Assembly: GCF_001644605.1 (NCBI RefSeq)
Contig: NZ_CP011388.1
Coordinates: forward strand, 2,031,001 to 2,095,000
Length of the DNA: 64,000 nt
Direction: 5' to 3'
Source of the DNA: Paenibacillus swuensis
GTDB lineage: Bacteria > Bacillota > Bacilli > Paenibacillales > DY6
The notes beneath the pieces are model-generated. The model had not been told where the DNA came from. It saw only the letters and a list, made by a program, of their open reading frames with translations, and did not search any database. The first letter of the stretch is position 1; each line of letters begins with the position of its first letter. This document shows, in pieces, positions 1-17,492 of the stretch. A program made the position numbers and the translations under genes.

Positions 1-564
1 GCCCACAATCACGACTCGAATGTCGTGATCCCCTTTCTCGACGTACTCTTGCACGAGAACGGGGAACGATTGATGGCTCGGATCCACCGACTCCCTGGCA
101 GCAATCCAGCCCTCCAGGCATTCCTTCCCCGTCACTCTGGCAATTCCCCGCCCCCATGATGAGGTTGCGGGTTTAATGACGCATAAATCCCCGAACTTCT
201 GAAGAGCATCAAACAGCTTTGCGGGGGTAAAGACTACTTGAAACCGCGGCTGTGGAATCCCGTGTTTGTCGAACACGATGGCCTGATGAATTTTATTAGT
301 GCAAATCGTAATGGCTTTGCCCGAATTTAACGTTTCCAGTCCGGCAAGCTCAAGGAGCTGGGTACGACTTATCGCATTTTTCTGAGAAAGGCATCGGATG
401 AGAGCAACCCCGAAGGAAGGGACATCGGATGCACCGACGGGCAATTCCATGGAGTCCAAGTTCACTTGGACTCGGATGCCGAGACGACTCAGGTAATCCA
501 TGATCCGCCGCTCTTCTTCTCTTAGCTTCGTTACGCACAACAAGACCGTGCTGCTATTCTCCAT
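1..564 (-). CDS. LysX-like ATP-grasp ligase (partial; C-terminal part outside window)
   Basis: The reading frame opens at ATG 564 and stays open to the window edge, giving 188 residues. It resembles LysX/RimK ATP-grasp ligases. LysX joins the alpha-amino group of 2-aminoadipate (or glutamate) to the C-terminal glutamate side chain of the carrier LysW. Visible hallmarks are RCLSQKNA (about residues 57-64, as in LysX), the glycine-rich nucleotide segment KPATSSWGRG (131-140) and QEYVEKGDHDIRV (172-184). The Mg-binding C-terminal half lies outside the window, so catalytic integrity cannot be checked. It starts 8 nt after the lysW stop, so the two are cotranscribed. The substrate amino acid cannot be deduced, and RimK-type glutamate ligase activity is the alternative. 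Confidence 0.82.
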   Translation of the reverse strand, partial: MENSSTVLLCVTKLREEERRIMDYLSRLGIRVQVNLDSMELPVGASDVPSFGVALIRCLSQKNAISRTQLLELAGLETLNSGKAITICTNKIHQAIVFDKHGIPQPRFQVVFTPAKLFDALQKFGDLCVIKPATSSWGRGIARVTGKECLEGWIAARESVDPSHQSFPVLVQEYVEKGDHDIRVVIVG

Positions 565-572
565 GGAAGTAC

Positions 573-746
573 CTACTCTCCCCAAGTTTCTTCAATCTCT
601 GGCGCTAATGCAATCGTGACGTTGCTCGCTTCAACTTGTACCTCATGTTCTTGGCCGCATGAATCACATTCGACGATTTCTCCCGTGGTTACGCGCGCTT
701 CAACCTCAATGTCCGACTTGCATACGAGACAGCTTAATTCTGCCAT
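573..746 (-). CDS. lysW: LysW-type amino-group carrier protein (57 aa)
   Basis: This small acidic protein has two CxxC pairs (Cys6/Cys9 and Cys27/Cys30) forming the LysW zinc ribbon, and it ends in ETWGE. The classical LysW/ArgW tail is EDWGE, whose terminal glutamate carries the substrate, so the attachment site is kept with one substitution (D to T). ATG 746 is preceded by a strong AGGAGG (757-762 on the opposite strand) with good spacing. In known systems LysW holds amino-adipate or glutamate during lysine, ornithine or secondary-metabolite synthesis. The adjacent LysX-like ligase supports a working carrier/ligase pair. None of the dedicated lysine enzymes (LysZ, LysY, LysJ, LysK) is visible here, but the downstream side is cut by the window edge. 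Confidence 0.9.
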   Translation of the reverse strand: MAELSCLVCKSDIEVEARVTTGEIVECDSCGQEHEVQVEASNVTIALAPEIEETWGE

Positions 747-814: not shown

Positions 815-866
815 TAAACCTCTTTGAGCATACCTGATTCTAAGAGTTTTGAATAATAGAAGAAAT

Positions 867-880
867 CTATTTGCAAATAG
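867..880. promoter_or_regulatory. Perfect 14-bp palindrome between operon end and lysW
   Basis: CTATTTGCAAATAG is a perfect palindrome 19 nt past the last gene of the sulfur operon and about 120 nt upstream of lysW. It could be an operator for the lysW promoter. The stem is AT-rich with no loop and no T-run, so it is a poor terminator. Confidence 0.25.
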
Positions 881-899
881 AAGAATTCATGCGCTGCTG

Positions 900-2234
900 T
901 TAACTATGCAGTTTCACCGAGGCGGACGTGTTGCGATTCACCGGAATTTGGAGCCCCAAGTGTTCCCTTAGTGTCTCTGCTTCGTACTCTGTCCTGTAAA
1001 GGCCGCGCTCTTGCAAAATCGGCACGACGAGCTCGACAAAATCTCGGAGCGAGCTAGGAAAAGGCGAACTGACAATAAAGCCGTCGGCCGCTTCTTCCTC
1101 ATGCCATTGCTGAATCAAATCGGCTATTGTATCGGGAGTGCCGACGAACTGCCCCTTCGGCGCCGCGGCTTTCAACGCAACTTGACGCAGGGTCAGACTC
1201 TGTTCCCTCGCTGTTCTCTTGATCCGGTCTGTACTGCTGCGGAAGCTGTTGCTCCCGATGTCGCCCAGCTCGGGGAACGGATCGTCCAGCGGATAGCGAG
1301 AGAAATCATGGTGATCGAAAAATCGCCCGAGTACTTGCAAAGCAAGCTCGATGCTTACGAGGCCGGCGAGTTCGTCAAACTTCCGATCCGCTTCTTCTTG
1401 CGTACGTCCGATAATCGGCCCGATGCCGGGAAGAATAACGATATCGTCCTTCGACCTTCCAGCAGCTGCAGCGCGCGTTTTTACTTCCTTATAGAATGAC
1501 TTGGCCTCTTCCATACTCTCATGCCCCGAGAAGACGGCATCGGCGCTTTGTGCCGCAAGATTTATGCCGCTTTCCGAAGATCCTGCCTGAAAGACGACCG
1601 GCTGCCCTTGCCTGGATCTGGCAATATTAAGCGGACCTTCAACCCTGAAATAACGGCCTTGGTGGTTCAGCCGATGCATCTTCTCCGGATCAAAAAATAC
1701 ACCTGTCTCCTTGTCCCGGACAAATGCGTCATCCTCCCATGAATCCCACAATCCGCGGACTACGTCCAGATGCTCCTCCGCTATTTGGTAGCGTTCGCCA
1801 TGAGACGGATGTTCGTCCTTGCCGTAGTTTTTCGCAGAGCCTTCAAGCGGAGAAGTCACAATATTCCACCCTGCCCTCCCCCCGCTAATATGGTCAAGTG
1901 AAGCAAATTGTCTGGCAACCGTGAAGGGTTCGCTGTAAGAGCTGGATAAAGTGCCCACAAGTCCAATCTTGGACGTGGCGGAGGCTAACGCGGATAGAAT
2001 CGTAAGCGGCTCGAACCGGTTCAGAAAGTGCGGAATGGACTTTTCATTAATATACAAACCATCGGCTATGAACACGAGATCGAACTTTCCGGCTTCCGCG
2101 GTCAACGCTTGCTCCTTATAGAATGGAAAGCTCACGCTTGCGTCAGCCGGGACTTCCGGATGCCGCCAAGCCGCCGCGTTTCCTCCCACGCCGTGGATCA
2201 AGGCGCCCAGTTTAATCGATTTACGTTTGCTCAT
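900..2234 (-). CDS. NtaA/SnaA-family flavin monooxygenase (CmoJ/YtnJ-like)
   Basis: A luciferase-like, FMNH2-dependent monooxygenase of the nitrilotriacetate/dibenzothiophene (NtaA/SnaA/DszA) branch; its 444 residues match the family length. Features include the N-terminal strand [12 protein letters not shown], the segment WNIVTSP near residue 138 and QAGSSESG near 245. In B. subtilis the homologue YtnJ (CmoJ) sits in the S-alkylcysteine salvage operon and oxidatively cleaves the C-S bond of N-acetylated substrates; the same role is inferred here from the neighbours. ATG 2234 has AGGAGG upstream and overlaps the stop of the acetyltransferase gene. It is the last gene of the operon. A flavin reductase must be supplied elsewhere. 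Confidence 0.85.
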
Positions 2235-2773
2235 CTCTTGCCTCCTATCGTACGGTCTGCTTCCACCAGAGAGAGCCGGTAGCTCTTCACGACCGAATCT
2301 CCTTTATGGATATCCTTATCGTCAGCGCGCTCGAAGCCAAGCCGTTCGTATAGTTGAACAGCAGATTGCATTACGTCGGACGTGTGAAGATATAAGGTGT
2401 CGGCTCCCCAAGTTCGCGAACGTTCAATCGTTTCAGCAATCAAAGCAGTCGCAATTCCTTGCCCGCGCGCTTGACGCGTAACCGCAAGCAGCCGCATGAT
2501 CGGCGCGTGAATGTTTAGTTCAGGCAAGCCATATGCCGCATCGGACGAATGATACAGAAATACGCTGCCGAGTAGGGTTCCCTCTGCTTCGGCGAGCAAA
2601 TGTGCTTTAACATTGGCGTCAATCAAGGAATTAGCGATATTCTCCTTGTAAGCTTCCCATCGTTCTCTTGATAGCAGCTGCTCATATTCGGCATATGCAT
2701 TCTCAAGCACCTCCCTTACCGCATCGGTATCCGATGGTTGCGCATCGCGTATGACAATCGTTTGATGTGTCAT
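2231..2773 (-). CDS. GNAT N-acetyltransferase (SnaA/YtmI-like role)
   Basis: A GNAT-fold acetyltransferase of about 180 residues, with the acetyl-CoA motif [13 protein letters not shown] and a C-terminal YERLGFE strand. In the B. subtilis cognate operon the GNAT enzyme SnaA N-acetylates S-modified cysteines before oxygenation; that role is inferred here from context, since GNAT substrate cannot be read from sequence. The reading frame extends upstream to GTG 2812, but the first ATG (2773), preceded by GGGTGGG, matches the usual GNAT N-terminus better. The stop overlaps the next start by 4 nt (ATGA), showing translational coupling. Confidence 0.8.
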
Positions 2774-2804
2774 CTCGGCCCACCCGCTTTCCCGAATTCG
2801 TTCG

Positions 2805-3296
2805 TCATACACCTCTCAAACCGCTTGAGGTTGTTTGCTCATTCCTAATTCTGGCGATCTGCTGCAAGTGATACTGCAGATGGGTGATAAACCCGCGCAC
2901 CACCCCCGATAAGGTGACCGTCTCTCCTTTAGCGTTCGTTCCGGTCTTCTCCCAATCCTCCGGTTCAAGACGCAGGAACAGCTGGCTATTGTAAATTAGC
3001 AGTGATCTAAAAGCAGCAAGGATGTCGGCAGCCTCGCCTTTATTGGCTTTCTGTCCTTCCACCCAAGCATCTTGGGTGAAAGCGGGCAACCTCACCTCTG
3101 ATTCGGATAAGATTTCTCTTATTCGGAAGGATACGATCAAGTTGTGGTCGGCCACATGAGCAAGTACTTCTGTTACGCTCCATTGATTCGGCGCGGCTTT
3201 CGCATGCAACCTTTCCTCTGATAAACCTTCAATAGCTTGTTCCAATTGGTCATATGTGCTCAAATACGTTTCAATATCGATCGCCGATTGGCTCAT
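2805..3296 (-). CDS. DinB/YfiT-fold protein, possible thiol S-transferase
   Basis: A four-helix DinB-superfamily protein of about 163 residues. The family's metal-binding histidines are visible: H51 and H55 (counted from the longer GTG start) in LAHVADH, and H143xxxH147 in THLQYHLQQ. The superfamily includes bacillithiol S-transferases (BstA, FosB-unrelated) and glutathione- or mycothiol-dependent enzymes. The location inside an S-modified-cysteine operon makes a thiol-transfer or thiol-hydrolysis role attractive, but this is inference. ATG 3296 (GAGGTG upstream) is chosen over GTG 3308. The 5' end overlaps the M20 gene. A DinB member is not part of the B. subtilis equivalent operon as I know it. 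Confidence 0.8.
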   Translation of the reverse strand: MSQSAIDIETYLSTYDQLEQAIEGLSEERLHAKAAPNQWSVTEVLAHVADHNLIVSFRIREILSESEVRLPAFTQDAWVEGQKANKGEAADILAAFRSLLIYNSQLFLRLEPEDWEKTGTNAKGETVTLSGVVRGFITHLQYHLQQIARIRNEQTTSSGLRGV

Positions 3297-4479
3297 GATC
3301 CCGTCCACCTCTTCCTTCTGTATTAGTCTCTTGCTGGAATTGTTCCAGAGCGTCTAGGGCAAGAGCGGCGAAAAACGCTGCTCCATGCTCCAAAGCACGC
3401 TCATCTACATCGAATGCGGGATGATGCCACTCCTGCGGTCCTTCGGTTCCCAAAAAAACAAACAGTCCCGGCGTTTCTTGCAGATAGTAAGCAAAATCTT
3501 CACCTGCCGGGGAAGGGGCAGGCACGATAACGCGAAGACTGGTTTTCTCAGCCGATCTCACTGCAAGATCGGCCAAGTTAGTGTCATTGCTCACCGCTGG
3601 AGGCCCATCCAACCAGGTTACCTTAGCGCTTGCATCGAATGCGTTCGCCACCCCCGCGACAATATGCTCGAATCTCTCGCGCACGTTCTCCCTTATTCTT
3701 GGTTCGAACGTGCGCACAGTTCCTTCGAGGATCGATTTATCCGATATGACGTTCCAAGCGGTCCCGCTCTGTATACGGGTTACGCTCACAACGGCGCTTT
3801 CCAGCGCTCCCACGTTGCGGCTGACGATCGACTGCAGGGCGGTCACGATATGTGCGGATGCGACAATCGAGTCAACTCCGGCTTCGGGAATGGCCGCATG
3901 GCTTCCTCGGCCAAGCACTTCAATAATAAATCCATCTGCGGCGGCCATGATTGGACCGGCTTTGATACCGATCGTTCCCACAGTCAAATCCGGTTTGTTA
4001 TGCAAGCCGAATATGGCCCTGACATCCTGAAGTGCGCCGCTTGCGATGACTTGTTGCGCTCCTTTCGCCTTCTCCTCCGCTGGTTGGAACAGAAACCGGA
4101 CCGTTCCTTGCAACTCGCTCTCTCTCATCTTAAGCAGCATTGCGGCGCCTACGACGGCTGCCGTATGAAAGTCATGCCCGCATGCGTGCATCTTCCCTTT
4201 GTTCCGGGAGGCATATGGAAGACCCGTCGCTTCTTGAATCGGCAGCGCGTCGATGTCAGCCCGAATGGCAATGACCGGGCCTTCGCGCATTCCGCCGACT
4301 TCCGCGACTGCGCCCGTCTGCAGCGGATAATTCGCTATGCGGATGTTCGCCTCAGACAGCCATCTGAGGATGGTCGCCGTTGTTTCATATTCTTCATGGG
4401 ACAGTTCGGGGTTGGCATGCAAGTGCCTCCTCATAGCGATTAATCTTTCCCCCAACGGCTCCAGCTTCAAGATACTCAT
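3271..4479 (-). CDS. M20 metallopeptidase/amidohydrolase (SndA/YtnL/HipO-like)
   Basis: A zinc-dependent amidohydrolase of 402 residues. Metal-ligand motifs are HACGHDFHT (C100, H102), QPAEEKAKGA (E135/E136), GLHNKPD and the C-terminal EWHHPAFD. Family members remove N-acyl groups from amino acids (hippuricase, N-acetylcysteine or N-acetyl-diaminopimelate deacylases). In this operon it would release free cysteine from N-acetylcysteine after the monooxygenase step, as SndA does in B. subtilis. ATG 4479 follows GGGAGGAG. It lies 28 nt after the CmoO-like gene and overlaps the DinB gene. Confidence 0.87.
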   Translation of the reverse strand: MSILKLEPLGERLIAMRRHLHANPELSHEEYETTATILRWLSEANIRIANYPLQTGAVAEVGGMREGPVIAIRADIDALPIQEATGLPYASRNKGKMHACGHDFHTAAVVGAAMLLKMRESELQGTVRFLFQPAEEKAKGAQQVIASGALQDVRAIFGLHNKPDLTVGTIGIKAGPIMAAADGFIIEVLGRGSHAAIPEAGVDSIVASAHIVTALQSIVSRNVGALESAVVSVTRIQSGTAWNVISDKSILEGTVRTFEPRIRENVRERFEHIVAGVANAFDASAKVTWLDGPPAVSNDTNLADLAVRSAEKTSLRVIVPAPSPAGEDFAYYLQETPGLFVFLGTEGPQEWHHPAFDVDERALEHGAAFFAALALDALEQFQQETNTEGRGGRDHEPIGDRY

Positions 4480-4507
4480 GGCTCTCCTCCCTAGCTTTCA
4501 TCACTCC

Positions 4508-5515
4508 TCACGTAACGGCCAATTCCTCAAAGGCTTCTTTCAGCAAAATAAGTGAACGCGCCCGTTTCTCGTAATCGCCGACCACCGTTGTAAACACGAA
4601 TTCTTCAACGCCATATTGTTCGCTTAATTCCAATATACGGTCACGGGCCGTCTCTTTCGTGCCTTTCGTCACGTCGGCTTCACGCACTTCGGTCGTATAG
4701 GACTCCCCTGCTTGCCTTGCGAACTCTTCCGCCTGTTCAAGTGTGCTTACGTTAACAGTCTTGCCGCCGGCAAGCGTAACACGAACGCTTAAGAGATCGC
4801 TTGCGATGGCAGATGCTTCTTCTTCCGTATCCGCCGCGATGACGGATAACGCAAGAATCGCTTTGGGGAGCGTTCCCGAGCTGCGGTTGAATTTCGTGCG
4901 ATACGTTTCGAAAGCTTGCCGTGCTGCGGCAGGATCGTTGTTAATGAATAGAGCGAACACGTAAGGCAAACCTCTTTCGGCCGCAAGTTCGGCGCTGGCC
5001 ACGCTTGTGCCAAGCAAAAAGATATCCGCAGGATGGCTGGGCAACGGGCTTGCCAGCAGGCCGGCCAGCGAATGATCTTCGCTCAGCGGTCCTCTTAGGA
5101 AGAGTTGTAACGCCGTCAACTTCTGCTCCAGCTTATCGCTATTCGCCGTCTGCAAAGCGCGCGTAGACCGCGGCAACCCTCCCGGCGCGCGTCCAATGCC
5201 AAGCTCGACCCTTCCCGGTGCCAGCGTTGCCAGTACATTGAAATTCTCGGCAACCTTATAGGGCTGGTAATGCTGAAGCATTACGCCGCCCGAACCGATC
5301 CGTATCGATTCCGTCTGGGCAAGCAAATAAGCGATGAGTACCTCGGGGGACGATCCTGCCAGACGTTCCGAATCATGGTGTTCCGACACCCAGAACCGCT
5401 CATAACCAAGCGATTCCGCCAATTTGGCTAACTTGACCGTGTTATGCAGCGCTTCTGCAGCCGTCTGTCCAGGGAATATGATGCTTTGGTCCAATATGCC
5501 AAGCTTCAATGCCAT
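4508..5515 (-). CDS. Luciferase-like FMN-dependent monooxygenase (CmoO/YtmO-like)
   Basis: An LLM-class flavin enzyme of 335 residues, the usual length. It begins KLGILDQS and contains FWVSEHHDSERLAGSSPEV (about 41-60), the RIGSGGVMLQHYQPYKVAENF core and GIGRAPGG. It resembles B. subtilis YtmO (CmoO) in the S-alkylcysteine operon, but this family is large and substrate assignment rests on context. ATG 5515 is preceded by AAGGAG. It lies 19 nt downstream of the ABC ATPase. A paralogue with the same core is encoded at 28239-29261 outside the operon. Confidence 0.85.
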   Translation of the reverse strand: MALKLGILDQSIIFPGQTAAEALHNTVKLAKLAESLGYERFWVSEHHDSERLAGSSPEVLIAYLLAQTESIRIGSGGVMLQHYQPYKVAENFNVLATLAPGRVELGIGRAPGGLPRSTRALQTANSDKLEQKLTALQLFLRGPLSEDHSLAGLLASPLPSHPADIFLLGTSVASAELAAERGLPYVFALFINNDPAAARQAFETYRTKFNRSSGTLPKAILALSVIAADTEEEASAIASDLLSVRVTLAGGKTVNVSTLEQAEEFARQAGESYTTEVREADVTKGTKETARDRILELSEQYGVEEFVFTTVVGDYEKRARSLILLKEAFEELAVT

Positions 5516-5534
5516 TGATATCTACTCCTTGCGT

Positions 5535-6287
5535 TCATATGGAATACGTGCTCTCCGGAGCGAATCTCTTCAGGAATTGCTTCGTTCTCTCCTCCTTCGG
5601 CGATCGGAAGATGTCACCCGGCTTTCCCTGCTCCACAATCGTTCCGTTATCCATAAAGACCACATCATTCGCCACATCTTGAGCAAATCCCATCTCATGA
5701 GTAACGATGATCATTGTAATGCCTTCTTTCGCAATCTTGCGTATGACGGAAAGCACTTCCCCTACAAGCTCTGGATCAAGCGAGGAGGTTGGCTCGTCAA
5801 AGAGAATAACTTTAGGACCCAGCGCCAGCGCCCGAGCGATACCCACTCTCTGCTGTTGCCCACCTGACAACTGGCTCGGATAGGCGTCCAGTTTATCCCC
5901 AAGTCCTACTTTCTTAAGCTGCTCTACACTCCGAACCCTCGCCTGTTCCTTAGGCAGTTTATGTACGACCAGGAGCCCCTCCATGACGTTCTCCAGCGCC
6001 GTTTTGTGCCGGAACAGGTTATATTGTTGAAACACCATGGCTGTTTTTTTGCGCAAGTTATAGATGCCCGCTTTAGTCGGACGATTGCATTGAACTACTA
6101 AACCGTCAATTGAGATTTCCCCGTCGCTTGGCCTCTCCAAATAATTGATGCACCGAAGCAATGTCGTCTTGCCTGAGCCGCTGGGACCCAATATGGCGAC
6201 GACATCTCCTTTCTCGACGGTCAGGTCGATCCCATGCAGCACTTGCTGCCGCCCATATGATTTTTTGATCTTAGAAAGCTTGATCAT
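5535..6287 (-). CDS. tcyN: Polar amino acid ABC transporter ATPase, cystine type
   Basis: A 250-residue ATPase that powers import, with Walker [10 protein letters not shown] (about 33-41), signature LSGGQQQR, Walker [13 protein letters not shown] and the H-loop VTHEMGFA. Closest in type to TcyN/TcyC/GlnQ. With the two permeases and the binding protein upstream it forms a complete cystine or S-substituted-cysteine importer. The start overlaps the permease stop by 4 nt (ATGA). Confidence 0.9.
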
Positions 6288-6994
6288 GTTACGCCTCCCC
6301 GGTTGTAAATCTGGATTCGCTTCTCAGCTATTGCGGTCAAACGCTCAATGAACAACGTCAGCCCCCAATAGATGAGCGCGGCAGCGATGTAGGATTCAAA
6401 AAACTTCCAGTTAGAAGAGGCTATAATCTGCGATTTGGCGTTAATGTCAACGACCGAAACGGTGAATACCAGCGTAGAGCCGTGGAGCATGCTGATCGTG
6501 CTATTGGACAGATTGGGCAGCATAATGGCGAATGCCTGCGGGAATACAATTCTGCGTATCGCTTGGGACGTTGTCATTCCGACCGAATAAGCCGCTTCGA
6601 TCTGACCCTTGTCGACCGCAAGCATACCCGAGCGCACGACTTCGGATAAATAGGCACCCGCTGTGATGGAGAATGCGATCAAGGCAAATCCGATCATCGG
6701 GATCGACACCGAACGGAAAGACCAGTCGAAATGCACGCATACGGCATCAATGACAAGGGGAAGTCCGAAATACACCAGCAGCAGATGGGTTAACATGGGT
6801 GTGCCCCGGATTAGGGTGACATAACCGACAGCGGCAGCATTCAAAAAGGGTACTTTGTTGATTCTTATCAAGGCTACGGCAGAGCCGATGACAAGTCCGC
6901 ATAAGACGGAAACCGCGGTAATGGCAAGCGTGGTCGGAATGGCTGACAGCAATTGAACCAGCGCCGACCCTATGAAGGATAAATCAATCTTCAT
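6284..6994 (-). CDS. tcyM: Amino acid ABC transporter permease (TcyM-like)
   Basis: A His/Glu/Gln/Arg-type inner membrane permease of 236 residues with about five membrane segments. The EAA loop that docks the ATPase is [20 protein letters not shown]. The frame reaches back to 7018, but ATG 6994 has AAGGAGG at ideal spacing and shares one base with the stop of the preceding permease (TAATG), so that start is used. It would dimerise with the TcyL-like permease. Confidence 0.88.
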
Positions 6995-7773
6995 TACTGC
7001 GCCTCCTTGCTTCGCCATTTCAATACGGTCCTTTTACGGAGAAACGATAGGGTTGGCGAAGGGTCTTTCGTTAAACCCGCAGCTAGCGGCTCATGGCGCA
7101 GAAGCCTCATCTCGATCCGGTCGAACAGCTTCTGCAGTGCAAAGCTGATGATGAAATACAGCGCCGCGAGAGAGATATAGATTTCGATAAATCGTTGTGA
7201 AAGTGTCCCCATCGTTTGGGCTTTCCCTGTAATGTCCATAATACCGAGCGTGAAGGCAAGCGACGTGTCCTTCAGATTGCCGATGACGATATTGCCGAAT
7301 ACCGGAACGGAGATCGACATCGCTTGCGGAAGGACGATCCGGCTGAATGCCTGATATCCGTTCATCCCGACAGCGTATGCAGCCTCCACTTGCCCGCGGT
7401 CCACCGCCGCAACCGCTCCGCGGATGAGTTCTGCAATGTACGCGCCGCTATGAAGAGAATAGGTAAGAATAACGAACACCAACGCAGGTGTTCTCGTAAC
7501 GTCGAGTTGAACCAGCTTAAGCACTTCAGGAATACCATAGTAAAATAGGAATAGTTGAATAAGAATTGGTGTGCCTCGAAAAAACGAGACGTACAGTTGT
7601 GAAAGCCTCCTCAGGATCGGAATGCGGTATAACTGGGGTAGCGCAACGAGAAGCCCGACCAGAGTTCCAATACCTATGGAGCTTCCTACGATTAGAAGCG
7701 TAACCTTCAAGGACGGAAGCAATCTGTACAAATATTCGAATACGTAGGCAATCTCAAATTGGTGTTGACCCAT
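6994..7773 (-). CDS. tcyL: Amino acid ABC transporter permease (TcyL-like)
   Basis: The second permease (259 residues), with hydrophobic segments near 20-45, 60-85, 95-115 and 190-220 and the EAA loop GQVEAAYAVGMNGYQAFSRI. The C-terminal extension of about 30 residues is basic and cytoplasmic. It lies between the binding protein and the TcyM-like permease in the same order as B. subtilis tcyJKLMN, except that only one binding-protein gene is present. The Shine-Dalgarno GGAGGAG is rather far (about 13 nt) from ATG 7773. Confidence 0.87.
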   Translation of the reverse strand: MGQHQFEIAYVFEYLYRLLPSLKVTLLIVGSSIGIGTLVGLLVALPQLYRIPILRRLSQLYVSFFRGTPILIQLFLFYYGIPEVLKLVQLDVTRTPALVFVILTYSLHSGAYIAELIRGAVAAVDRGQVEAAYAVGMNGYQAFSRIVLPQAMSISVPVFGNIVIGNLKDTSLAFTLGIMDITGKAQTMGTLSQRFIEIYISLAALYFIISFALQKLFDRIEMRLLRHEPLAAGLTKDPSPTLSFLRKRTVLKWRSKEAQ

Positions 7774-7822
7774 CGGTTTGTTTTCACTCCTCCAGCCGTA
7801 CTCGCATGCTGCTTACGACCTG

Positions 7823-8665
7823 TTATTTCGAGAAATCTTGGCCAAGCCATTCTTCGCTGATTTTTTTCAACGTACCATCCGCTTTTAGCTCTTTAATTGT
7901 AGTATCGATCGCTTCAGCCAGCTTCTTGGATTCCGGATCGTCCTTGCGAAACACGTATTGGATGTTGCCTTCGTTCAGAGGTTCCCCTACCGTCTTGAGT
8001 TTTCCTTGCGGATCTTTGATCGGGAGCAGGAAGTCGGCGCCAAGAGTGGCATACGCCCGCCCAGACGTAATCTGCAGCACTTCGTCGTTAGCGTCGTTCT
8101 GCTGGTAGACGATATCAATATCTTTCTCATTCTCCTTGTTATAGTTTTCCAACAACTGAGCCTGTGCGCTGGTTGGACCTATGAGTACCTTCTTGCCTTG
8201 CAAGTCGTCCAGTGACTTGATCGGATCGGCGTTATCCGATGCTACGATGATTTTGTTCCGCCAATACGCGTACGGCTCTTGATTAAAATCAAATTTTTGT
8301 TCACGCTCCGGGTTTTTCTCGAAAAGGTGAGCGGCGATATCAACTTTCTTGGTCTCAAGACTAAGTAAAATGTTTGAGAACTCTAACGTTTGAAACTCGA
8401 ATTCATATGCTTCCAGCCTTTTGTCGATTTCGCGAATCAGTTCTACATCAAAGCCGGTCAAATTGCCTTTATCATCAAGGAATGCGACTTGTTCAAAGTC
8501 GTTCGCCGTACCTACGATAATTTTCTTGGCGGTTTCACCCTCCGCTTTGCCGTTCGCGGTTAAGCTGTCCGCTTTGACGCTTGCGGATTCATTGGTGTTG
8601 CTGCCGCATGCAGAAGTAAGAAGAGCCAAAGCAAGCGTGAAAATAACTAACGTAAACTTTTTCAT
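7823..8665 (-). CDS. Cystine-type ABC transporter substrate-binding lipoprotein (TcyJ/K-like)
   Basis: A family 3 solute-binding protein of 280 residues. The signal peptide ends in the lipobox LLTSAC, so the mature protein is lipid-anchored outside the membrane. Family features include LTGFDVELIREIDKRL and VLIGPTSAQAQLLENY. The frame extends to 8680, but ATG 8665 has GGAGG 8 nt upstream and starts the typical MKKFTL signal peptide. It is the first gene of the structural operon, directly after the LysR gene, with a candidate operator 38-53 nt upstream. Confidence 0.9.
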   Translation of the reverse strand: MKKFTLVIFTLALALLTSACGSNTNESASVKADSLTANGKAEGETAKKIIVGTANDFEQVAFLDDKGNLTGFDVELIREIDKRLEAYEFEFQTLEFSNILLSLETKKVDIAAHLFEKNPEREQKFDFNQEPYAYWRNKIIVASDNADPIKSLDDLQGKKVLIGPTSAQAQLLENYNKENEKDIDIVYQQNDANDEVLQITSGRAYATLGADFLLPIKDPQGKLKTVGEPLNEGNIQYVFRKDDPESKKLAEAIDTTIKELKADGTLKKISEEWLGQDFSK

Positions 8666-8702
8666 TGTAAAGACCTCCATGTTTTTTTAATTTAATGCCA
8701 TT

Positions 8703-8725
8703 ATTCCTACTTGTTAAGTATGAAT
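8703..8725 (-). promoter_or_regulatory. Candidate operator before the sulfur importer operon
   Basis: The plus strand carries the imperfect inverted repeat TTCCTACTT-GTT-AAGTATGAA (8705-8725), 8 of 9 positions complementary, just before the binding-protein gene. It shares ATTCCTA plus GTT-A with the site before lysW. It probably serves a sulfur-status repressor or the upstream LysR protein; which one cannot be told from sequence. Confidence 0.45.
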
Positions 8726-8783
8726 TATGAGTTGAACTAACTGTAGCATCTTGTTTCGCATATGGATAATAGAGAAATTCAAT

Positions 8784-9692
8784 CTATTTATATAACAATT
8801 CAATATGATTTCTTTTGTCATACAACTCTTTGCCTATACGCATCATCGCTTCGATAAAGGGGGTATGCTTTCCATGACAAGACACGATGTTCGTCTGCAA
8901 GCTTATGATTTCCGATTCTTGCAATCGAACCGGTACAAGCTTCCCGCTTCTTACTTCCTCTTGAGCGCATAGGCTGGGCAGGAAGCTGATGCCCGACTTC
9001 AACATGACCAGTTTCTTGGCTGTCTCTGAATTATCCGTAAGGTACTGGATATTCGGGGGATAATCTAGGTTTCCGAACATCCGGTGTACTCGCAGCCAAT
9101 CTAATGCTCCGCATTCAAAAAATACCAGCGGCTCCGCGGCTATATCCTCAATCGTGACCTTATCCATGGACAGAAACGGATGTTCCTCGTAGACATACAA
9201 TCGAATAGGGTCCTCATAGAACGGGGTAGATTGCAAAATGGGATGGCTTATGTTACGGACAAATCCGATATCGACCTCTTTGTTGACGACCTTGCCTATC
9301 ATATCGTCGGTTGTGCCTGTAACGAGTTTAAAATGGGTGTTTGGAAACATGGGCTTCAGCCTTGAAAGGACACCTGGAATCGTATAGTTGGCCACCGAGA
9401 CCGTACACCCGATTTTAAGTTCTTCCGGCAATGATTTCTTCTGATTGACATGAAGTCTGCCCTTTTGATAAGTCATCAAGATCTGTTGCGCGTAGGGCAA
9501 AAACCTCTTCCCTTCTTCCGTTATCTGAATTTGTTTGCCAATGCGGTCGAATAGCTTACAGTTCAACTCGCGCTCCAAGGACTGAATCCTTGCGCTTACC
9601 GACGGTTGTGATAAGAACAGGATATCGGCTGCTTTGGTATAACTTCCATAATGGATGATGTATACGAAAGCTTCGATATTATCAATATTAAT
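8784..9692 (-). CDS. LysR-type regulator of the sulfur operon (AscR/YtlI-like), probable ATT start
   Basis: A LysR regulator: N-terminal winged helix (AFVYIIHYGSYTKAADILFLSQPSVSAR is split across the HTH, about residues 7-34) followed by a two-lobed effector domain. In B. subtilis the LysR protein AscR (YtlI) activates the homologous operon, so an effector such as an acetylated sulfur compound is inferred. The frame can be extended to ATG 9818, but that adds 42 residues unlike LysR. GGAGG (9701-9705) lies 8 nt before ATT 9692, which gives a protein beginning (M)NIDNIEAF, the standard LysR start and 302 residues. GTG 9701 would overlap the ribosome site itself. Confidence 0.85.
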   Translation of the reverse strand: MNIDNIEAFVYIIHYGSYTKAADILFLSQPSVSARIQSLERELNCKLFDRIGKQIQITEEGKRFLPYAQQILMTYQKGRLHVNQKKSLPEELKIGCTVSVANYTIPGVLSRLKPMFPNTHFKLVTGTTDDMIGKVVNKEVDIGFVRNISHPILQSTPFYEDPIRLYVYEEHPFLSMDKVTIEDIAAEPLVFFECGALDWLRVHRMFGNLDYPPNIQYLTDNSETAKKLVMLKSGISFLPSLCAQEEVRSGKLVPVRLQESEIISLQTNIVSCHGKHTPFIEAMMRIGKELYDKRNHIELLYK

Positions 9693-9730
9693 GGTAGACA
9701 CCTCCGGTTCGTATGATAGATTTGGTCCGA

Positions 9731-9795
9731 ATAAAACAAAAGAGACCTCCGCAATCACGGCCATGAAAGAGGAAGTCTCCGGTGATCCGGTAGAC
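9731..9795 (-). promoter_or_regulatory. Candidate attenuator in the LysR leader (terminator/antiterminator)
   Basis: On the minus strand an arm GGAGACTTCC (9771-9780) pairs with GGAGGTCTC (9742-9750, one mismatch) and is followed by TTTTGTTTT, a factor-independent terminator shape. The same GGAGAC can instead pair with GTCTACCGG (9787-9795), with a 4-nt loop and one bulged A. The two hairpins exclude each other. The element lies about 40-100 nt before the LysR coding start. It might also simply terminate sqhC transcripts. Confidence 0.5.
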
Positions 9796-9878
9796 GCAAT
9801 ATTCGAGTATATTCGCATCCTATTATTCGGTTTCTCTTTATATCATACTTTTCCGATTAAATTACTTGCATTTATATT

Positions 9879-9908
9879 AGGTTACCATATTTATACAAAT
9901 AATGTCAA
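9879..9908 (-). promoter_or_regulatory. Candidate sigma-A promoter for the LysR leader
   Basis: A perfect TTGACA (-35, 9903-9908) is followed after 18 nt by TAACCT (-10, 9879-9884), a weak -10. It begins right after the sqhC stop and points to the LysR gene. Transcription from here would give a leader of about 170-180 nt that contains the predicted attenuator. Confidence 0.45.
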
Positions 9909-9923
9909 TTTATTTTTAAAGCA

Positions 9924-11852
9924 TCAGCCAAACTTATCCCGATACTTCACCAACGTAATCAGCGGCCAAATGTAGTTATAACTCTCATAGCGGATATAAA
10001 AGTTCCCCGGCAATCCCGCGCCGGTCGGGTACGCTGTCGCATCGCCACCTTGGTCCATGAGCGCAAGCAAACACCGCAGTCCAGTCGTTATTTCGAGCGA
10101 TGGGGTGTCGGCATAGGAAATGAGCGCATCCAGAGTCCACGCCGTATGGGAGAGAGTACTGCTGCCCAAAGCCGCGTATTCCCTCTTCACATCACTGCGG
10201 CACGATTCTCCCCATCCGCCATCCTTATTCTGAATATCGCGCAACCATTGAATCGCCTTGCTTACAGGGGCCTGCTCCCGGTCTGCACCAACCGCCGCCA
10301 ATCCTGTCAACGCCGCCCAAGTTCCATATATGTAGCAAATCCCCCATCGGCCGTACCAAGAACCGTCTTCCCGCTGAGCTTGCTTCAGCCAGTGAATCCC
10401 GCGTTTCACGAAGGCATGCCGCAGATCCAAACCGCAGGTCTCCCCGAGAAATTCCAGCGTTCTACCGGTCAGATCCGCGGTGGAAGGATCAATTGCCGCT
10501 GATTTGGCGCCGTCTATAGGAACGTATTCAAGCCATTTATTTGTTCGGTTCCGTTCAAAAGCGGGCCACCCGCCGTCCTTATTTTGCATGGAGAAAATCC
10601 ATTGTAATCCTCTGTTCCAGGCCTCCAACCGCTCTGGAGAATCCGATGTTCCCGACTTCAATGCTCTTAGAGCCGCCGTTGTATCATCGACGTCCGGGTG
10701 TATGGTGTTGGAATCGGAGAATCCCCATCCTCCTGCTACAGGTGTGCTCACCTCCTGGGCCCAATCGCCAAGCTTATGCTGTTGTTTGGACAACAGGTAG
10801 GCGTTCGCGCGAACCAGCGTGTTATCGAAGCGGCTGACTCCGGCTTGTTGCAGTGCATGAGAAAGTAAAGCTGTATCCCACACCGTGGAAGGAGAATTCT
10901 GAAGTATGAGCCCGACCTCTGTGTCATACAACATGCTCTTCAACCCTTCAATCGCTTTGGAGATCCGAGGATCATCTTTCGCATAACCCAGCGACATCAA
11001 GGCGAAGATCATGAGGATGGTCGAAGTTGCGTAACTGTACAAGGTACCGTCCGGCTCGATTCGCTCTAACATATATTGCTCCGCTTTCGTTACGGCCGAT
11101 TGATGAAGCTGTTCCGGGAGACCTTGAAGTTGGTAGATCCCGTATTTTAAGGATGAAAGGAATGGGATTTCTCTGGAATCGGCGTTCTGAAACTTTGAAA
11201 TAGAATTCAGGAATTGCAATGCGTAGTCTTCGTCCAACTCGTCTTCCCTGGGAATGGAACCCGCAGGCTCCCGCAATTGGAGTGGATAAGGGGACTTTAT
11301 GATAAACTTCTTGTTCGACAGCAGCAAAATAGGGGCAAGATGCACTCGAGCGTAGGAAGAAAATTGCCCGAAATGCAGTGGACCCGCCGGGGGTAACAAC
11401 AAGATCTCGAGAGGAATGGAAACCGACAATGGCCAGGCGACTTGACCGGTTACAGCGAGCATCACTTTGGAAAGGACATTGGTTACGTTGCCGAGTCCCC
11501 CTGCCCGCATGATGTACTCTTTGGCCTGAACCAAGGAGGCATCGGTCGGTTTACTGTACCCGGACACGAGCAAAGCGTAATAGGCATCGACGGTAGCGGA
11601 CAAGTTTCCTTTCTCACCCGGATACAACTGCCAATATCCATCCGCATGCTGCAGGTTCAGTATGGTTTGATGCAACTGCCGCAACAGTTTCTCATTGGGA
11701 TAGTCGAGCATTTTCAGTAAAATTAAGAAGTAAGCCGACGTTGATGTGCCGTTGTCGAAACAAAGGCGCCATGTCCCGTCGGCTTGCTGTAAGTGCATGA
11801 TTCGGCTTACGTAGCCTTTTATGGATTGCTCCACTGCTGCCTCAATATTCAC
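9924..11852 (-). CDS. sqhC: Sporulenol synthase-like terpene cyclase (SqhC)
   Basis: A squalene-hopene cyclase family protein of 642 residues, close in size to B. subtilis SqhC (tetraprenyl-beta-curcumene cyclase). The catalytic acid motif DVDDTT is present, and QW repeats (QNKDGGWPAF, QREDGSWYGRW, QNKDGGWGE) stabilise the double alpha/alpha barrel. It would protonate and cyclise a linear or monocyclic C35 polyprene at the membrane, yielding sporulenol-like lipids linked to spores and oxidative resistance. The DVDDTT and QEVSTPVAGGWGF segments fit SqhC rather than bacterial hopene cyclases, where the motif is DVDDTA. Start GTG 11852 follows GAAGGG. No prenyl transferase partner lies nearby. 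Confidence 0.85.
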   Translation of the reverse strand: MNIEAAVEQSIKGYVSRIMHLQQADGTWRLCFDNGTSTSAYFLILLKMLDYPNEKLLRQLHQTILNLQHADGYWQLYPGEKGNLSATVDAYYALLVSGYSKPTDASLVQAKEYIMRAGGLGNVTNVLSKVMLAVTGQVAWPLSVSIPLEILLLPPAGPLHFGQFSSYARVHLAPILLLSNKKFIIKSPYPLQLREPAGSIPREDELDEDYALQFLNSISKFQNADSREIPFLSSLKYGIYQLQGLPEQLHQSAVTKAEQYMLERIEPDGTLYSYATSTILMIFALMSLGYAKDDPRISKAIEGLKSMLYDTEVGLILQNSPSTVWDTALLSHALQQAGVSRFDNTLVRANAYLLSKQQHKLGDWAQEVSTPVAGGWGFSDSNTIHPDVDDTTAALRALKSGTSDSPERLEAWNRGLQWIFSMQNKDGGWPAFERNRTNKWLEYVPIDGAKSAAIDPSTADLTGRTLEFLGETCGLDLRHAFVKRGIHWLKQAQREDGSWYGRWGICYIYGTWAALTGLAAVGADREQAPVSKAIQWLRDIQNKDGGWGESCRSDVKREYAALGSSTLSHTAWTLDALISYADTPSLEITTGLRCLLALMDQGGDATAYPTGAGLPGNFYIRYESYNYIWPLITLVKYRDKFG

Positions 11853-11929
11853 GATGCCCTTCAGCCCTTCCGTCTTTCCGTCTATCTTTTAATTTATGAT
11901 GACGGGCTTGGGCGACATGCGGCGTTTAT

Positions 11930-11960
11930 TTAAAGACAAAAAAGACTGAGCGGGGCTCAG
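11930..11960 (-). terminator. Factor-independent terminator of the 419-residue secreted protein gene
   Basis: The minus strand reads CTGAGCCCCGCTCAG (11946-11960) followed by TCTTTTTTGTCTTT. It lies 20 nt after the stop codon at 11980 and is a classical strong terminator. Confidence 0.88.
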
Positions 11961-11979
11961 CCTTTGGGACAACTTGAAC

Positions 11980-13239
11980 TTAATCTTTTAACTGATCCAA
12001 TAATGCTTGTAATTTAGCATAATAAGCAAGATAGATTTGTACGCGCTCTTCTCTTGTTTTGGCTGCTTTCAGATCTTTGCTGAGCTGTTTGGCCAATTCG
12101 TTGATTTGAGCAAGAATCTCCTCATAAGTAGGCTTCTCTTCGCCTTGTCCCGGTTTCTCATTCGTTAGCGTAACAGCTCTTTCAGCCAGCGTACGGTCAA
12201 GGAGTTTGGCGACAACCGTTACCGTACCGGTTTTGGCCTTCTTATCAATGGTAACAATCCCTTTGTCGCTCAGTTTCGCCGTAGGGGTCGTTCCCGCTTT
12301 CACGGACCATTCAACGAATTGCGACGGGGCTTCTTTATTCGAGACGTTCAAACCCAACTCCACACGGGTTCCGTTGCTGCTGGTTTTCTTCGTGATGATT
12401 TCAGACTCGGTACGGATCACCGCGAACATCATCGCTCTGGATGCTGCGACTCCATTCGGGATTCGTGCTTCAAAATTAGTAAACGTCTGAACAAAGCTAG
12501 GCAACCAGTTGTTGGAATAGCTGTCGTAGAATTTCATTACTTTACCGACAACATTGCTCTCTACATTAGGTTGCTTAAGTACTTGTTTAAAAACACTAAC
12601 AAGAAACTGTTTTTTAGCCGATTCATTAGATAGGAGAGCGTAGATCTCCGGCAAAGATAGTTTTTGGATTTGTTGTCTGATGACCGGCTCGACCCCGGTA
12701 TAAGACTCGTTTCCGAAGATGAACTCGGCGAAGTCGGAGACCTTGATATTCTGATCAACTCCGGCTTTCGCCGCAAATTTACGCGCGGTATCATTGAATT
12801 GATTCGCGGCGGCAATGCTCTCAAGCTCTCTGCCGTCTCCATAATACGTGATGGCAAGCACCTGAATGAAACCTACGATATCTTCCCGAATCGCTTGATA
12901 CTCCTCAGGTTGAAACAGCGGTTTTACAACATTCCATGTCGGATTAATTAAATTCAAGTCGGTTGGTTTGGCAGGATCAATCGTACGAAGTTGATCTCTC
13001 GCCGCTCTGACATTCACTAAATCCTGCGGATAATCCACGGAATTCGCGATCAACGCCGTGCGGATCTCATTCATCTTGGCGGTTATGGCCGGATCAATAA
13101 ATGTTGCCGCTGCGGATACTTCACTAGTCCAGCCTGTCTTTACGGACAAATCTTTCACTCCGAGGGGAGCCACGGTTAAAACACTCGCTGACATACACAC
13201 GGTTAACAAAGACGCTGCTACTTTTTTACTTAGATTCAC
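11980..13239 (-). CDS. Secreted protein of unknown function, Ig-like domain and helical ends
   Basis: A 419-residue precursor with a signal peptide ending near EVSAAA (about residue 46). The next 230 residues are mainly helical with no recognised motif. Residues about 280-360 look like a bacterial Ig-like (Big_2 type) beta-domain: EWSVKAGTTPTAKLSDKG, then VTVVAKLLDRTLAERAVTL. The C-terminal 55 residues are charged and predicted coiled coil (ILAQINELAKQLSKDLKAA). No enzyme signature or sorting motif is seen. Start GTG 13239 follows TTGAGGTGAT. It is likely a paenibacillar envelope or matrix protein. Confidence 0.75.
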   Translation of the reverse strand: MNLSKKVAASLLTVCMSASVLTVAPLGVKDLSVKTGWTSEVSAAATFIDPAITAKMNEIRTALIANSVDYPQDLVNVRAARDQLRTIDPAKPTDLNLINPTWNVVKPLFQPEEYQAIREDIVGFIQVLAITYYGDGRELESIAAANQFNDTARKFAAKAGVDQNIKVSDFAEFIFGNESYTGVEPVIRQQIQKLSLPEIYALLSNESAKKQFLVSVFKQVLKQPNVESNVVGKVMKFYDSYSNNWLPSFVQTFTNFEARIPNGVAASRAMMFAVIRTESEIITKKTSSNGTRVELGLNVSNKEAPSQFVEWSVKAGTTPTAKLSDKGIVTIDKKAKTGTVTVVAKLLDRTLAERAVTLTNEKPGQGEEKPTYEEILAQINELAKQLSKDLKAAKTREERVQIYLAYYAKLQALLDQLKD

Positions 13240-13338
13240 TTACCAATCACCTCAACTTTAATTTAATGGTGTTGCAATGTGAGCTTACCTAGTGTTATAT
13301 AGGCATCATCCCCCTCATTAATGTCCTGCTGGAGGAAC

Positions 13339-14460
13339 CTATTTCATGAGAGAGGATAGTTGTGCTGCTGCGCTTGCTTGCATATTGCTTTTCTCTTCGC
13401 TATACTCTGCGCGCCATCGTCCCATAGAAGATGTGCTCCAGCCATTCGCCTTATATTCTTTGTTCGCCTTGCTCATAATGGACTCGAATCTGCCGTCACA
13501 AGAACCTTCAGCCGCCGCAATCTTAGGCAAATATTCACCTTGGAGTTTCTTCATTGACAGTCCCCCGCCACCGGCTTCGGACTTAATTTGACCAATCAGC
13601 GAGCTGCTCTTGCTGCGGCAACTGGAACGTAATGATGATAACTGAGACTCATATTTACGGTCTGCCGCTTTTTTACCCGCGGTTGTCCCGGTCTTTGAAC
13701 CAGAACCAGACGGCTTGGCAGTCGGCTTGACGGGCTTGGTTGAAGCTTGCACTGTAGAGCCTTCGGGTTTGCCTGACGAAGCCACGTTGTGTTGGTCCTT
13801 CTCTTCGGTTTGTTTCGATGAATCAGCGCCAGACTTATCCGTGGTTATGGAAGTTGCTGCGGTTGTTCCGCCTTCGGGCTTCTTCTTTTCCAGATCCGCC
13901 TTGATCTTAGCGCGTTCCTTCTCGTCATAAACCCCAACCAATTCAATAGGATAATTCGGGTCCAGAATCACCAAACCTTTGCCATACTTGGTAGTTACGG
14001 AACGCAAAGCTGTAATTTCATTGTCATCCAACTTTTCCAGCAACATTTCCCGCATCTCCAACTTCTTGGCATTGGACAGCTTGTCGGTTGCCTTACCTTG
14101 CAAATACATAATTTCTTTCAAGCTTAATCCCGATTTAAGCAAAATCGAAGCGACATCCATCGCATCCTGCGTTTCGATGGGCTTATCCGTTAACTGCCCC
14201 GCCTTATGAACCGCGCCTGTAAGAGGCTTGGGCACCGCGGTTCCGCTGCTATTGCCCGTTGCCCCGCTTGCGGCTGCTTCTTTGTTCCGATTCAGAATGT
14301 CCCCTGCGGATATCGACTGAAGCTGATAGTACACATAGCCGGCTCCGCACAAAACTAATAATGCCATGGTTGAAATTCCGCCGATTACCCAGCGTTTCCA
14401 TACACTTGAACTTTTGCTTGCTTTTGCTCCTGAATTGACGCGTTTACGTTTCTTCATCAT
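13339..14460 (-). CDS. Membrane-anchored protein of unknown function with disordered linker
   Basis: A 373-residue protein: basic N-terminus (KKRKR), one membrane segment (about 25-45), a helical region (about 90-190) with repeated SLKEIMYLQGKAT-type helices, a Ser/Thr/Lys/Gly-rich linker (about 190-265) and a C-terminal domain with two cysteines (about 281 and 321) that could form an extracellular disulfide. The frame extends to 14484, but ATG 14460 has TGGAGG 9 nt upstream. Little space separates it from the EPS terminator (14504-14546), so it may be expressed by read-through. No function is assigned. Confidence 0.75.
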   Translation of the reverse strand: MMKKRKRVNSGAKASKSSSVWKRWVIGGISTMALLVLCGAGYVYYQLQSISAGDILNRNKEAAASGATGNSSGTAVPKPLTGAVHKAGQLTDKPIETQDAMDVASILLKSGLSLKEIMYLQGKATDKLSNAKKLEMREMLLEKLDDNEITALRSVTTKYGKGLVILDPNYPIELVGVYDEKERAKIKADLEKKKPEGGTTAATSITTDKSGADSSKQTEEKDQHNVASSGKPEGSTVQASTKPVKPTAKPSGSGSKTGTTAGKKAADRKYESQLSSLRSSCRSKSSSLIGQIKSEAGGGGLSMKKLQGEYLPKIAAAEGSCDGRFESIMSKANKEYKANGWSTSSMGRWRAEYSEEKSNMQASAAAQLSSLMK

Positions 14461-14495
14461 GTTGTATGCCCTCCAGTATCGCATTTGATAAATCC

Positions 14496-14546
14496 AAAAG
14501 GACGCCCCTTGATCTCAGGTGGCGTATCGCCATCAGACCTTGGGGC
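14496..14546 (-). terminator. Probable terminator at the end of the EPS operon
   Basis: The minus strand forms a two-level stem. Outer arms GCCCC..GGTCT and AGATC..GGGGC (14504-14546) have a small AA/AA internal loop, and the inner hairpin TGGCG-ATA-CGCCA is perfect. CCTTTT follows, a short T-run, so termination may be incomplete. It lies 44 nt beyond the manC stop. Confidence 0.55.
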
Positions 14547-14589
14547 TGTCATCCTTGATTTCGCGAATGCGTCCGAAGCTTCGCTTCCG

Positions 14590-15942
14590 CTAACGCTGAG
14601 CGGCTACCTGCCACTCTTCATGTAGTTCTACCGTCTCATCGCTGTAGTGAGCAATGCCGGTCTGGACAACGATAATTTCCAGATCTTCCAATGCCTTTAC
14701 GCTATGCAGCGTTTTCTTCGGGATATGCACAACATTCCCCGGGGTTAGTTTCATGTAATTGCCGTTATACACGAATTCAGCTTCACCTTTTACGACCGTC
14801 CATACTTCATCCACAACCGTATGCATTCTGTAACCGAGGTGGCATCCGTCTTTAATCCCGATTCTTTTCGTTAATACCCCGTAACCGCCGCTGTATTCCT
14901 TCGTGTCGAGAATGCGGCTCCAGCCCCATTTTTTCTCCTCAAATCGAGGAATTTGTTTCGTCTTCATAATTTCTTTCACTTTATGGCTCTCCGATTTCGC
15001 GGATACCAGAATGCCGTCCGGGCTCGCCGCCACAATGACATCATCCAGTCCGATGACCGTAACCGGAATATCCAGTTCATTCAGTACATGCGTATTGCGG
15101 CATTCGTGAACTTGGACCTCTTCACCGAGCGTGTCCGAGGACATCTCTTCTGTTAATGTGTTCCACGTACCTAAATCTTTCCAATATCCGCTGTAAGGAA
15201 TAACCGTGATGTTGTTGACCTTTTCCACCACTTCATAGTCAAAGCTGATTTTTGGCAACACATCATAATGCTTAAGCAACTCTTCATACTGAATCGGCAC
15301 TTTCTTCTCAATCAAGGTGTCAATCATGAATCCCAGCTTGAAGGCGAACACGCCGCAGTTCCACAGGGCATTCTTATCCATCAGCATCCGGGCTGTACGG
15401 TCATCCGGCTTCTCAGCAAACCGGGCTACTTTGCGATAGGCGGATTCTTCCCCCTCCTCCGGCACAATGTAACCGTATTTCGTGGATGGATATGTAGGGT
15501 ACACACCCATCAACGCAAGGTCTGATTCCGTCTGACGCAGCGCCGGCTCCAGCTCCTTCAATTTGTAGAAAAATTCATCCTCCACATAGGGATCCACCGG
15601 AAGAACTACAACAACTTCATCCAAGGAAACGGATTGTGCCGAATACAGATAAGTAGAAGCTAAGGCAATGGCAGGAAACGTATCTCTGCGATCCGGTTCT
15701 ACAATCAGAGGAACCTCTTCACCCAGTTGACTGCGCAAAATTTCCACTTGAGTGGAGCTGGTGGCGACCACCGCTTCTCCGCCCAAACCGCAGGAGCGGA
15801 TCTGCTCCCATACGCGTTGTACCATGGACACCGAATCCCCTTCCGGGGTTTCCAGTACTCTTAGGAACTGTTTGGAACGCGCATCGTTGGACAAAGGCCA
15901 TAACCGGCTGCCGGATCCGCCTGATAACAGTATGATTTTCAT
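14590..15942 (-). CDS. manC: Mannose-1-phosphate guanylyltransferase, ManC type with cupin domain
   Basis: Makes GDP-mannose from mannose-1-phosphate and GTP. The N-terminal nucleotidyltransferase has the signature LSGGSGSRLWPLSNDARSKQ (about 5-24), with FAEKPDD near 175. The C-terminal cupin (about 340-450) has the type II mannose-6-phosphate isomerase region GYRMHTVVDEVWTVVKGEAE. The length of 450 suits a bifunctional ManC/PMI, though isomerase activity is not proven. It is the last gene of the EPS cluster, 2 nt after the flippase, with AAGGAG before ATG 15942. No phosphomannomutase gene is visible. Confidence 0.87.
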   Translation of the reverse strand: MKIILLSGGSGSRLWPLSNDARSKQFLRVLETPEGDSVSMVQRVWEQIRSCGLGGEAVVATSSTQVEILRSQLGEEVPLIVEPDRRDTFPAIALASTYLYSAQSVSLDEVVVVLPVDPYVEDEFFYKLKELEPALRQTESDLALMGVYPTYPSTKYGYIVPEEGEESAYRKVARFAEKPDDRTARMLMDKNALWNCGVFAFKLGFMIDTLIEKKVPIQYEELLKHYDVLPKISFDYEVVEKVNNITVIPYSGYWKDLGTWNTLTEEMSSDTLGEEVQVHECRNTHVLNELDIPVTVIGLDDVIVAASPDGILVSAKSESHKVKEIMKTKQIPRFEEKKWGWSRILDTKEYSGGYGVLTKRIGIKDGCHLGYRMHTVVDEVWTVVKGEAEFVYNGNYMKLTPGNVVHIPKKTLHSVKALEDLEIIVVQTGIAHYSDETVELHEEWQVAAQR

Positions 15943-15944
15943 CT

Positions 15945-17471: not shown

Positions 17472-17492
17472 GATGACGCACTCCTAAAGGTT

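Follow-up and report, generated by a model that had tools for sequence, protein, structure and literature searches.

LysW-type amino-group carrier proteins (AmCPs) take part in the lysine pathway of Thermus and, as ArgW, in archaeal arginine biosynthesis, and they also serve natural-product pathways. DADH has been described as being assembled on the AmCP Vzb22 (PMC9303977), and in azinomycin biosynthesis a kinase, a reductase, the transketolase AziC5/C6 and an aminotransferase lead to DADH by an AmCP route that starts from glutamate (PMC9570651), while iso-maleimycin is another LysW-dependent product (PMC12022981). The operon from Paenibacillus swuensis studied here shares a carrier, a ligase, a kinase, a reductase and a hydrolase with the Thermus and archaeal systems, but it lacks a LysJ-type aminotransferase and includes a transketolase and an amino-acid ligase. 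Going by their description, vazabitide A and s56-p1 of Streptomyces are comparable in having a carrier protein on which DADH is built stepwise (PMC9303977); these are, however, described as feeding nonribosomal peptides, whereas the P. swuensis operon ends in a free-standing amino-acid ligase. Likewise by description, the azinomycin enzymes AziC1-C7 make the DADH unit with a kinase, a reductase, a two-part transketolase and an aminotransferase (PMC9570651), but there sulfation and aziridine closure follow, and no such enzymes were recognised in the P. swuensis operon. A vazabitide-like locus of S. tagetis encodes LysW, LysX, LysY, LysZ, LysK, transketolase and DegT homologues; its aminotransferase, however, is 37% identical to that of P. 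swuensis, and the gene for the partner subunit discussed below occurs nowhere in its genome, so that regio- or stereochemistry may differ.

The P. swuensis operon is close in type to a cluster of Serratia sp. ATCC 39006, with which it has in common an eight-gene core, including a degenerate DegT partner, a fused LysZ-LysK and a split transketolase, as well as an MFS protein, an amino-acid ligase and an FMN reductase, and the Serratia aminotransferase is that of PDB entries 8Y96, 8Y97 and 8Y98. The Serratia cluster differs in that its proteins are 42-61% identical, the FMN reductase gene stands before that for LysW, the LysW tail is EDWGE and no sulfur operon occurs in the 8 kb seen upstream. 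In P. swuensis such a sulfur operon adjoins LysW. By composition only, it recalls the CmoO/CmoJ salvage of B. subtilis (two flavin monooxygenases, an acetyltransferase, a deacetylase candidate and a cystine-type transporter), in which S-alkylcysteine is acetylated, sulfoxidised by CmoO, cleaved by CmoJ and deacetylated, and cysteine is recovered (PMC10863075), but in P. swuensis the sulfur operon is physically co-inherited with the AmCP operon. The core of the AmCP operon is probably a new member of the DADH-type AmCP pathways and closely resembles that of Serratia sp. ATCC 39006, and its ending in a free-standing amino-acid ligase together with a co-inherited sulfur-salvage operon is a variant not found in the literature searched.

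Gene content of the two operons

The window, that is, the whole stretch of 64,000 nucleotides analysed, comprises contig positions 2031001-2095000 of the 5.0 Mb single-contig genome, and a second stretch, L002 (contig 2012501-2032400; 19.9 kb), covers 18.5 kb to its left. Across L002 and the window edge run eleven minus-strand genes, several overlapping and the others no more than about 30 bases apart. Gene 1 (window 573-746), preceded by the Shine-Dalgarno-like AGGAGGTG, encodes a LysW-type AmCP of 57 aa with two CxxC pairs and the tail EETWGE. It passes the Pfam LysW cut-off (PF21344; 46.0 vs 27 bits) and approaches without reaching the two NCBIfam LysW cut-offs (54.2 vs 75 and 30.4 vs 53.2 bits), and no second LysW is found elsewhere in the genome. 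The adjoining LysX-type ATP-grasp ligase (window 1-564, truncated at position 1; L002 18177-19064) starts at ATG 564, with TTG 585 as an alternative, and has a full length of 295-302 aa in the host genome. Among the NCBIfam models, LysX ranks first for this ligase by E-value (201.5 bits vs a cut-off of 275.6); the ligase passes the RimK-family cut-off and aligns over its length with the solved LysX/ArgX structures 3vpd, 1uc8, 3vpb and 5k2m.

The remaining nine genes, all on the minus strand of L002, encode a 220-aa degenerate DegT partner with a weak DegT match (17487-18149) and, by domain assignment, a 440-aa DegT aminotransferase (16168-17490), a LysY/ArgC-type reductase (LysY; 15122-16171), a 618-aa fusion of a LysZ-type kinase with a LysK-type M20 hydrolase (13275-15131), the N half (12465-13274) and C half (11524-12486) of a transketolase, an MFS exporter (10320-11534), an L-amino-acid ligase and an FMN reductase (8459-9031). 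The L-amino-acid ligase (9051-10316) combines an ATP-grasp with an L-amino-acid-ligase C-terminal domain, and its closest solved relative is BL00235. The operon therefore holds the features of an AmCP pathway, namely a LysW with C-terminal Glu, a LysX with SWGR, LysY, LysZ and LysK (the latter two fused), together with a two-subunit transketolase and a DegT aminotransferase. Over 26 clusters the following active-site motifs are invariant or nearly so: SWGR and TNTHLGA in LysX, MADKNF in the aminotransferase, GCMAV in LysY, EEE, GEPSG and DHT in LysK, and GDG and GIAE in the transketolase. No Rfam element was found at the operon; further left, a cobalamin riboswitch (L002 4554-4755) precedes a vitamin B12/iron-type ABC transporter and cobalamin genes.

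On the other side of LysW, and likewise on the minus strand, the sulfur operon (window 900-9818) encodes an NtaA/DmoA-family flavin monooxygenase, a CmoJ-like candidate (900-2234), a GNAT acetyltransferase (2231-2812), a DinB-superfamily protein scoring above the Pfam mycothiol-S-transferase cut-off (2805-3308; 30.2 vs 27 bits), an M20 amidohydrolase as deacetylase candidate (3271-4479), a second luciferase-like flavin monooxygenase of the MsnO8 family, a CmoO-like candidate (4508-5515), a cystine-type ABC transporter (5535-8680; ATPase 5535-6287, permeases 6284-7018 and 6994-7773, binding protein 7823-8680) and a LysR-family regulator (8784-9818). At the level of protein families this composition fits salvage of the S-alkylcysteine type, with two flavin monooxygenases, an N-acetyltransferase, a deacetylase candidate and cystine-type uptake as its putative parts. 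Between the two operons no consensus promoter or terminator was found, a weak result given a chance expectation of 0.6-0.9, and a perfect 14-base palindrome, CTATTTGCAAATAG (window 866-879), is possibly an operator. Next to the LysR gene lies a 642-aa ORF (window 9924-11852) with repeated QxxDGGW-like motifs that is squalene-hopene-type cyclase-like.

The preliminary description, which was made from the window, had recognised the LysW carrier with its LysX-like ligase and an adjoining operon for S-modified cysteine, and both identifications are borne out by the profile matches, the structural alignment and the gene composition given above. Its remark that no other LysW-pathway enzymes were visible is accurate for the window, which ends at position 1, but homologues of LysY, LysZ and LysK lie directly to the left. 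It had also proposed that the ETWGE tail may reflect a different ligase partner. Within the order the tail is ETWGE in 17 of the 19 operons and EDWGE in the remaining two, clusters of the same operon in Serratia, Kosakonia and the actinomycetes also carry EDWGE, and the SWGR motif of LysX, reported in ArgX as recognising the EDWGE tail (PMC10433800), does not vary over the 26 clusters. The tail change is a lineage difference and nothing special, and that proposal is abandoned.

The 220-aa partner has no NCBIfam match and falls just below the Pfam DegT cut-off. A profile built from 18 homologues hit a single solved structure, chain C of 8Y96 (E 9.7e-80), and the DegT aminotransferase matches chain A of that structure (E 2.5e-182). 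Both 8Y96 and 8Y98, the latter PPE-bound, are titled as a heterooligomeric aminotransferase from Serratia sp. ATCC 39006 and were released on 2024-12-18; no publication on 8Y96 or on the Serratia cluster was found in the literature searched. The fold predicted for the partner, at middling confidence (mean pLDDT 65), gives Z 18.1 against chain C of 8Y96 and about 12 against other PLP enzymes. An hhalign comparison of the partner and aminotransferase profiles was not significant, which probably reflects the small depth of the two alignments, but the relation between the two is settled by the solved Serratia pair, which matches both. Since homologues of both 8Y96-type subunits are encoded together in the operon, we infer from the sequences and the predicted fold that they would form a complex of the 8Y96 type.

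Occurrence and shared history of the operons

LysW scores above the Pfam cut-off in 19 of 395 genomes of the order, and the operon is present in all 19, P. swuensis included. Gene order is the same throughout except at two loci (L048 and L049), where the FMN reductase gene precedes that for LysW. At two other loci the last gene encodes a diverged flavodoxin-fold protein (L032, 16811-17362; L033, 2519-3070), the L032 copy having KefF as its best NCBIfam match, and at L035 (genome G061; 3018-3556) the FMN reductase reads as two overlapping frames and may carry a frameshift. Outside the order, named genomes were scanned with an alignment of the aminotransferase, and the eight-gene core was also found in Prodigiosinella confusarubida, which we take to be the current name of Serratia sp. 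ATCC 39006, in Kosakonia oryzendophytica, two Saccharothrix, two Nocardiopsis, Actinoallomurus spadix, Streptomyces gossypii and Streptomyces sp. RKAG290. In the last of these (L072, 16082-19949) the ending differs: after the core come an ATP-grasp ligase, a 436-aa protein that matches no NCBIfam model and an MFS protein. The core clusters of L048 and L049 (genomes G080 and G022) group with those of Serratia and Kosakonia and not with the remaining Bacillota clusters, suggesting a further inter-phylum transfer. In random draws the partner gene occurred in one of 296 genomes from the order of Serratia and one of 396 from the phylum of Saccharothrix, each being the seed itself, and in two of 398 from the home phylum, both members of the home order. 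The operon core is conserved over three phyla, sporadic outside the order and rare elsewhere as judged by these draws.

Upstream of LysW the sulfur operon, whole or partial, is present in nine of the 19 genomes. A five-gene peptide ABC operon (Dpp) stands between the two in seven of these nine loci, P. swuensis has no Dpp there, and one locus has remnants of both. In a further three of the 19 (L035, L042 and L037) the same Dpp flanks LysW, once in opposite orientation, but the sulfur operon is missing there, and the same holds for L052 as far as seen. At L046 (genome G156; 3130-6130) remnants of the sulfur and Dpp operons, namely a binding protein and two permeases followed by a DppD fragment, directly precede LysW, which is consistent with an internal deletion. 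The P. swuensis genome holds no close DppA, the best match being 31%, and in none of ten genomes that have the sulfur operon without LysW does that Dpp adjoin the sulfur operon. Outside the block, P. swuensis shares no flanking gene of at least 50% identity with the eight other linked loci.

In the GyrB tree P. swuensis stands with three genomes of another family (f5), whereas in the tree of the core operon its cluster falls within the f11 group. The sulfur-operon monooxygenase tells the same story as the core: in a tree of 30 sequences, the six LysW-linked copies form one clade (100/98), in which the P. swuensis copy is placed next to those of G376, G344 and G303 (100/99). In tests whose p-values are indicative, because the groups were picked after the trees had been seen and the 30 sequences were those of highest similarity, a GyrB clade of P. 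swuensis with the genomes that have the most similar clusters was rejected (p-AU 2.8e-31), as was a clade with the f5 genomes in the core-operon tree (p-AU 4.1e-11) and with the f5 copies in the monooxygenase tree (p-AU 1.9e-9). The conflict between the GyrB and core-operon trees indicates that the LysW operon was horizontally transferred into P. swuensis, and the sulfur operon shares its gene history and moved into P. swuensis with it. Their adjacency is not due to chance, as it recurs in nine of the 19 genomes with a common gene history and differing outer flanks, so that the link to sulfur-compound handling to which the preliminary description had drawn attention is real.

What this link means is a separate question. 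We lean towards the view that the sulfur operon is a neutral passenger that lay next to the LysW operon in a single ancestor and has remained linked to it without a shared function; this concerns the link only and is compatible with the AmCP pathway proposed below. On the core tree the linkage requires a minimum of two changes and fits one origin and one loss, it is missing in ten of the 19 genomes and did not show up next to the clusters of Serratia, Kosakonia and the actinomycetes, and the sulfur-operon monooxygenase is widespread in the order (275 of 395 genomes). On the other hand, the operons stayed paired over several genera with differing outer flanks and moved jointly to another family. 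Another possibility, again for the link alone and one to which we give a minor share of the probability, is that the sulfur operon protects the producer by recovering the cysteine of adducts that an electrophilic product forms with thiols. Salvage of the CmoO/CmoJ type processes S-alkylcysteine from electrophile detoxification (PMC10863075), the sulfur operon has the two flavin monooxygenases, the GNAT protein, the deacetylase candidate and a DinB protein resembling thiol S-transferases, the aziridine of azinomycin derives from DADH (PMC9570651), and the two operons are co-inherited. However, no aziridine-forming enzyme was recognised among the eleven operon genes, and the sulfur operon is absent next to half of the clusters, and neutral linkage is given the larger share. 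More doubtful still is the fuller picture of a mobile supercluster in which a DADH-derived electrophilic peptide would be made beside its own self-protection, with thiol conjugation and S-alkylcysteine salvage recycling the cysteine of the adduct; if true, this would be a mode of self-resistance without precedent found in the literature searched.

Proposed pathway and product

We consider it probable that the operon encodes an AmCP route to a DADH-type amino acid, which is then coupled by the amino-acid ligase into a small peptide. LysX would charge LysW, at its C-terminal Glu, with an acidic amino acid (probably glutamate); the kinase half of the fusion (LysZ) would phosphorylate the side-chain carboxylate, and LysY would reduce it to the semialdehyde. 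The two-part transketolase would then extend this by a two-carbon ketol unit, and amination of the resulting ketone would fall to the DegT aminotransferase and its degenerate partner, after which the LysK half would release a diamino-dihydroxy acid, presumably DADH. Since the operon ends in an amino-acid ligase, the released acid is predicted to be joined to another amino acid, giving a small peptide with an unusual diamino acid, which the FMN reductase may tailor and the MFS protein would export. The core is of a known kind because its pair of DegT aminotransferase and degenerate DegT protein is homologous to the solved Serratia enzyme. The preliminary description had raised the possibility of a new kind of LysW chemistry, and on this point the match to the DADH-type AmCP pathways speaks against it.

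The LysX residues after PEF are AKSWK, which fit neither the AAA-type (Asn-Thr) nor the Glu-type (Gly-Phe) motif (PMC10433800), so that an attempt to assign the substrate from this signature failed and glutamate is assumed by analogy. It could also be that LysX loads alpha-aminoadipate, which would lead to the one-carbon-longer homologue, a C8 diamino-dihydroxy acid. The atypical motif and the rank of LysX as top NCBIfam model by E-value would allow for this, but the 19.9 kb left stretch and the annotated right neighbours showed no genes for making alpha-aminoadipate, and the known transketolase-containing AmCP natural-product pathway begins with glutamate (PMC9570651), which makes this variant of the route unlikely. 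That the operon is an unusual form of ordinary lysine or arginine/ornithine biosynthesis is very improbable indeed: homologues of LysW, LysX, LysY, LysZ and LysK are all present, but a DegT enzyme with its partner, a split transketolase, a ligase and an exporter stand in place of a LysJ/ArgD-type aminotransferase, a separate argB scores above its family cut-off at 2.53 Mb, 0.5 Mb away, and the operon occurs in just 19 of 395 genomes of the order and has moved horizontally. The lysine (AAA) pathway was rejected on the ground that the sole aminotransferase genes of the operon are of the DegT and not the LysJ type, and an ArgW route replacing the acetylated one on the ground of the separate argB. 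The preliminary description had placed the LysW pair outside lysine and arginine biosynthesis, a view it left to depend on whether a complete pathway of either kind lay left of position 1; neither does, and the placement holds, with the split transketolase and the replacement of LysJ by a DegT aminotransferase in its favour.

AmCP natural-product biosynthesis, which in the literature read was described from Streptomyces, extends to a mobile family whose hosts are Paenibacillus-like Bacillota, enterobacteria and several actinomycete genera. As the gene set is minimal and complete in culturable bacteria, the pathway should be easy to reconstitute, and the co-inherited operon of the S-alkylcysteine-salvage type is a concrete hint that the product is possibly thiol-reactive.
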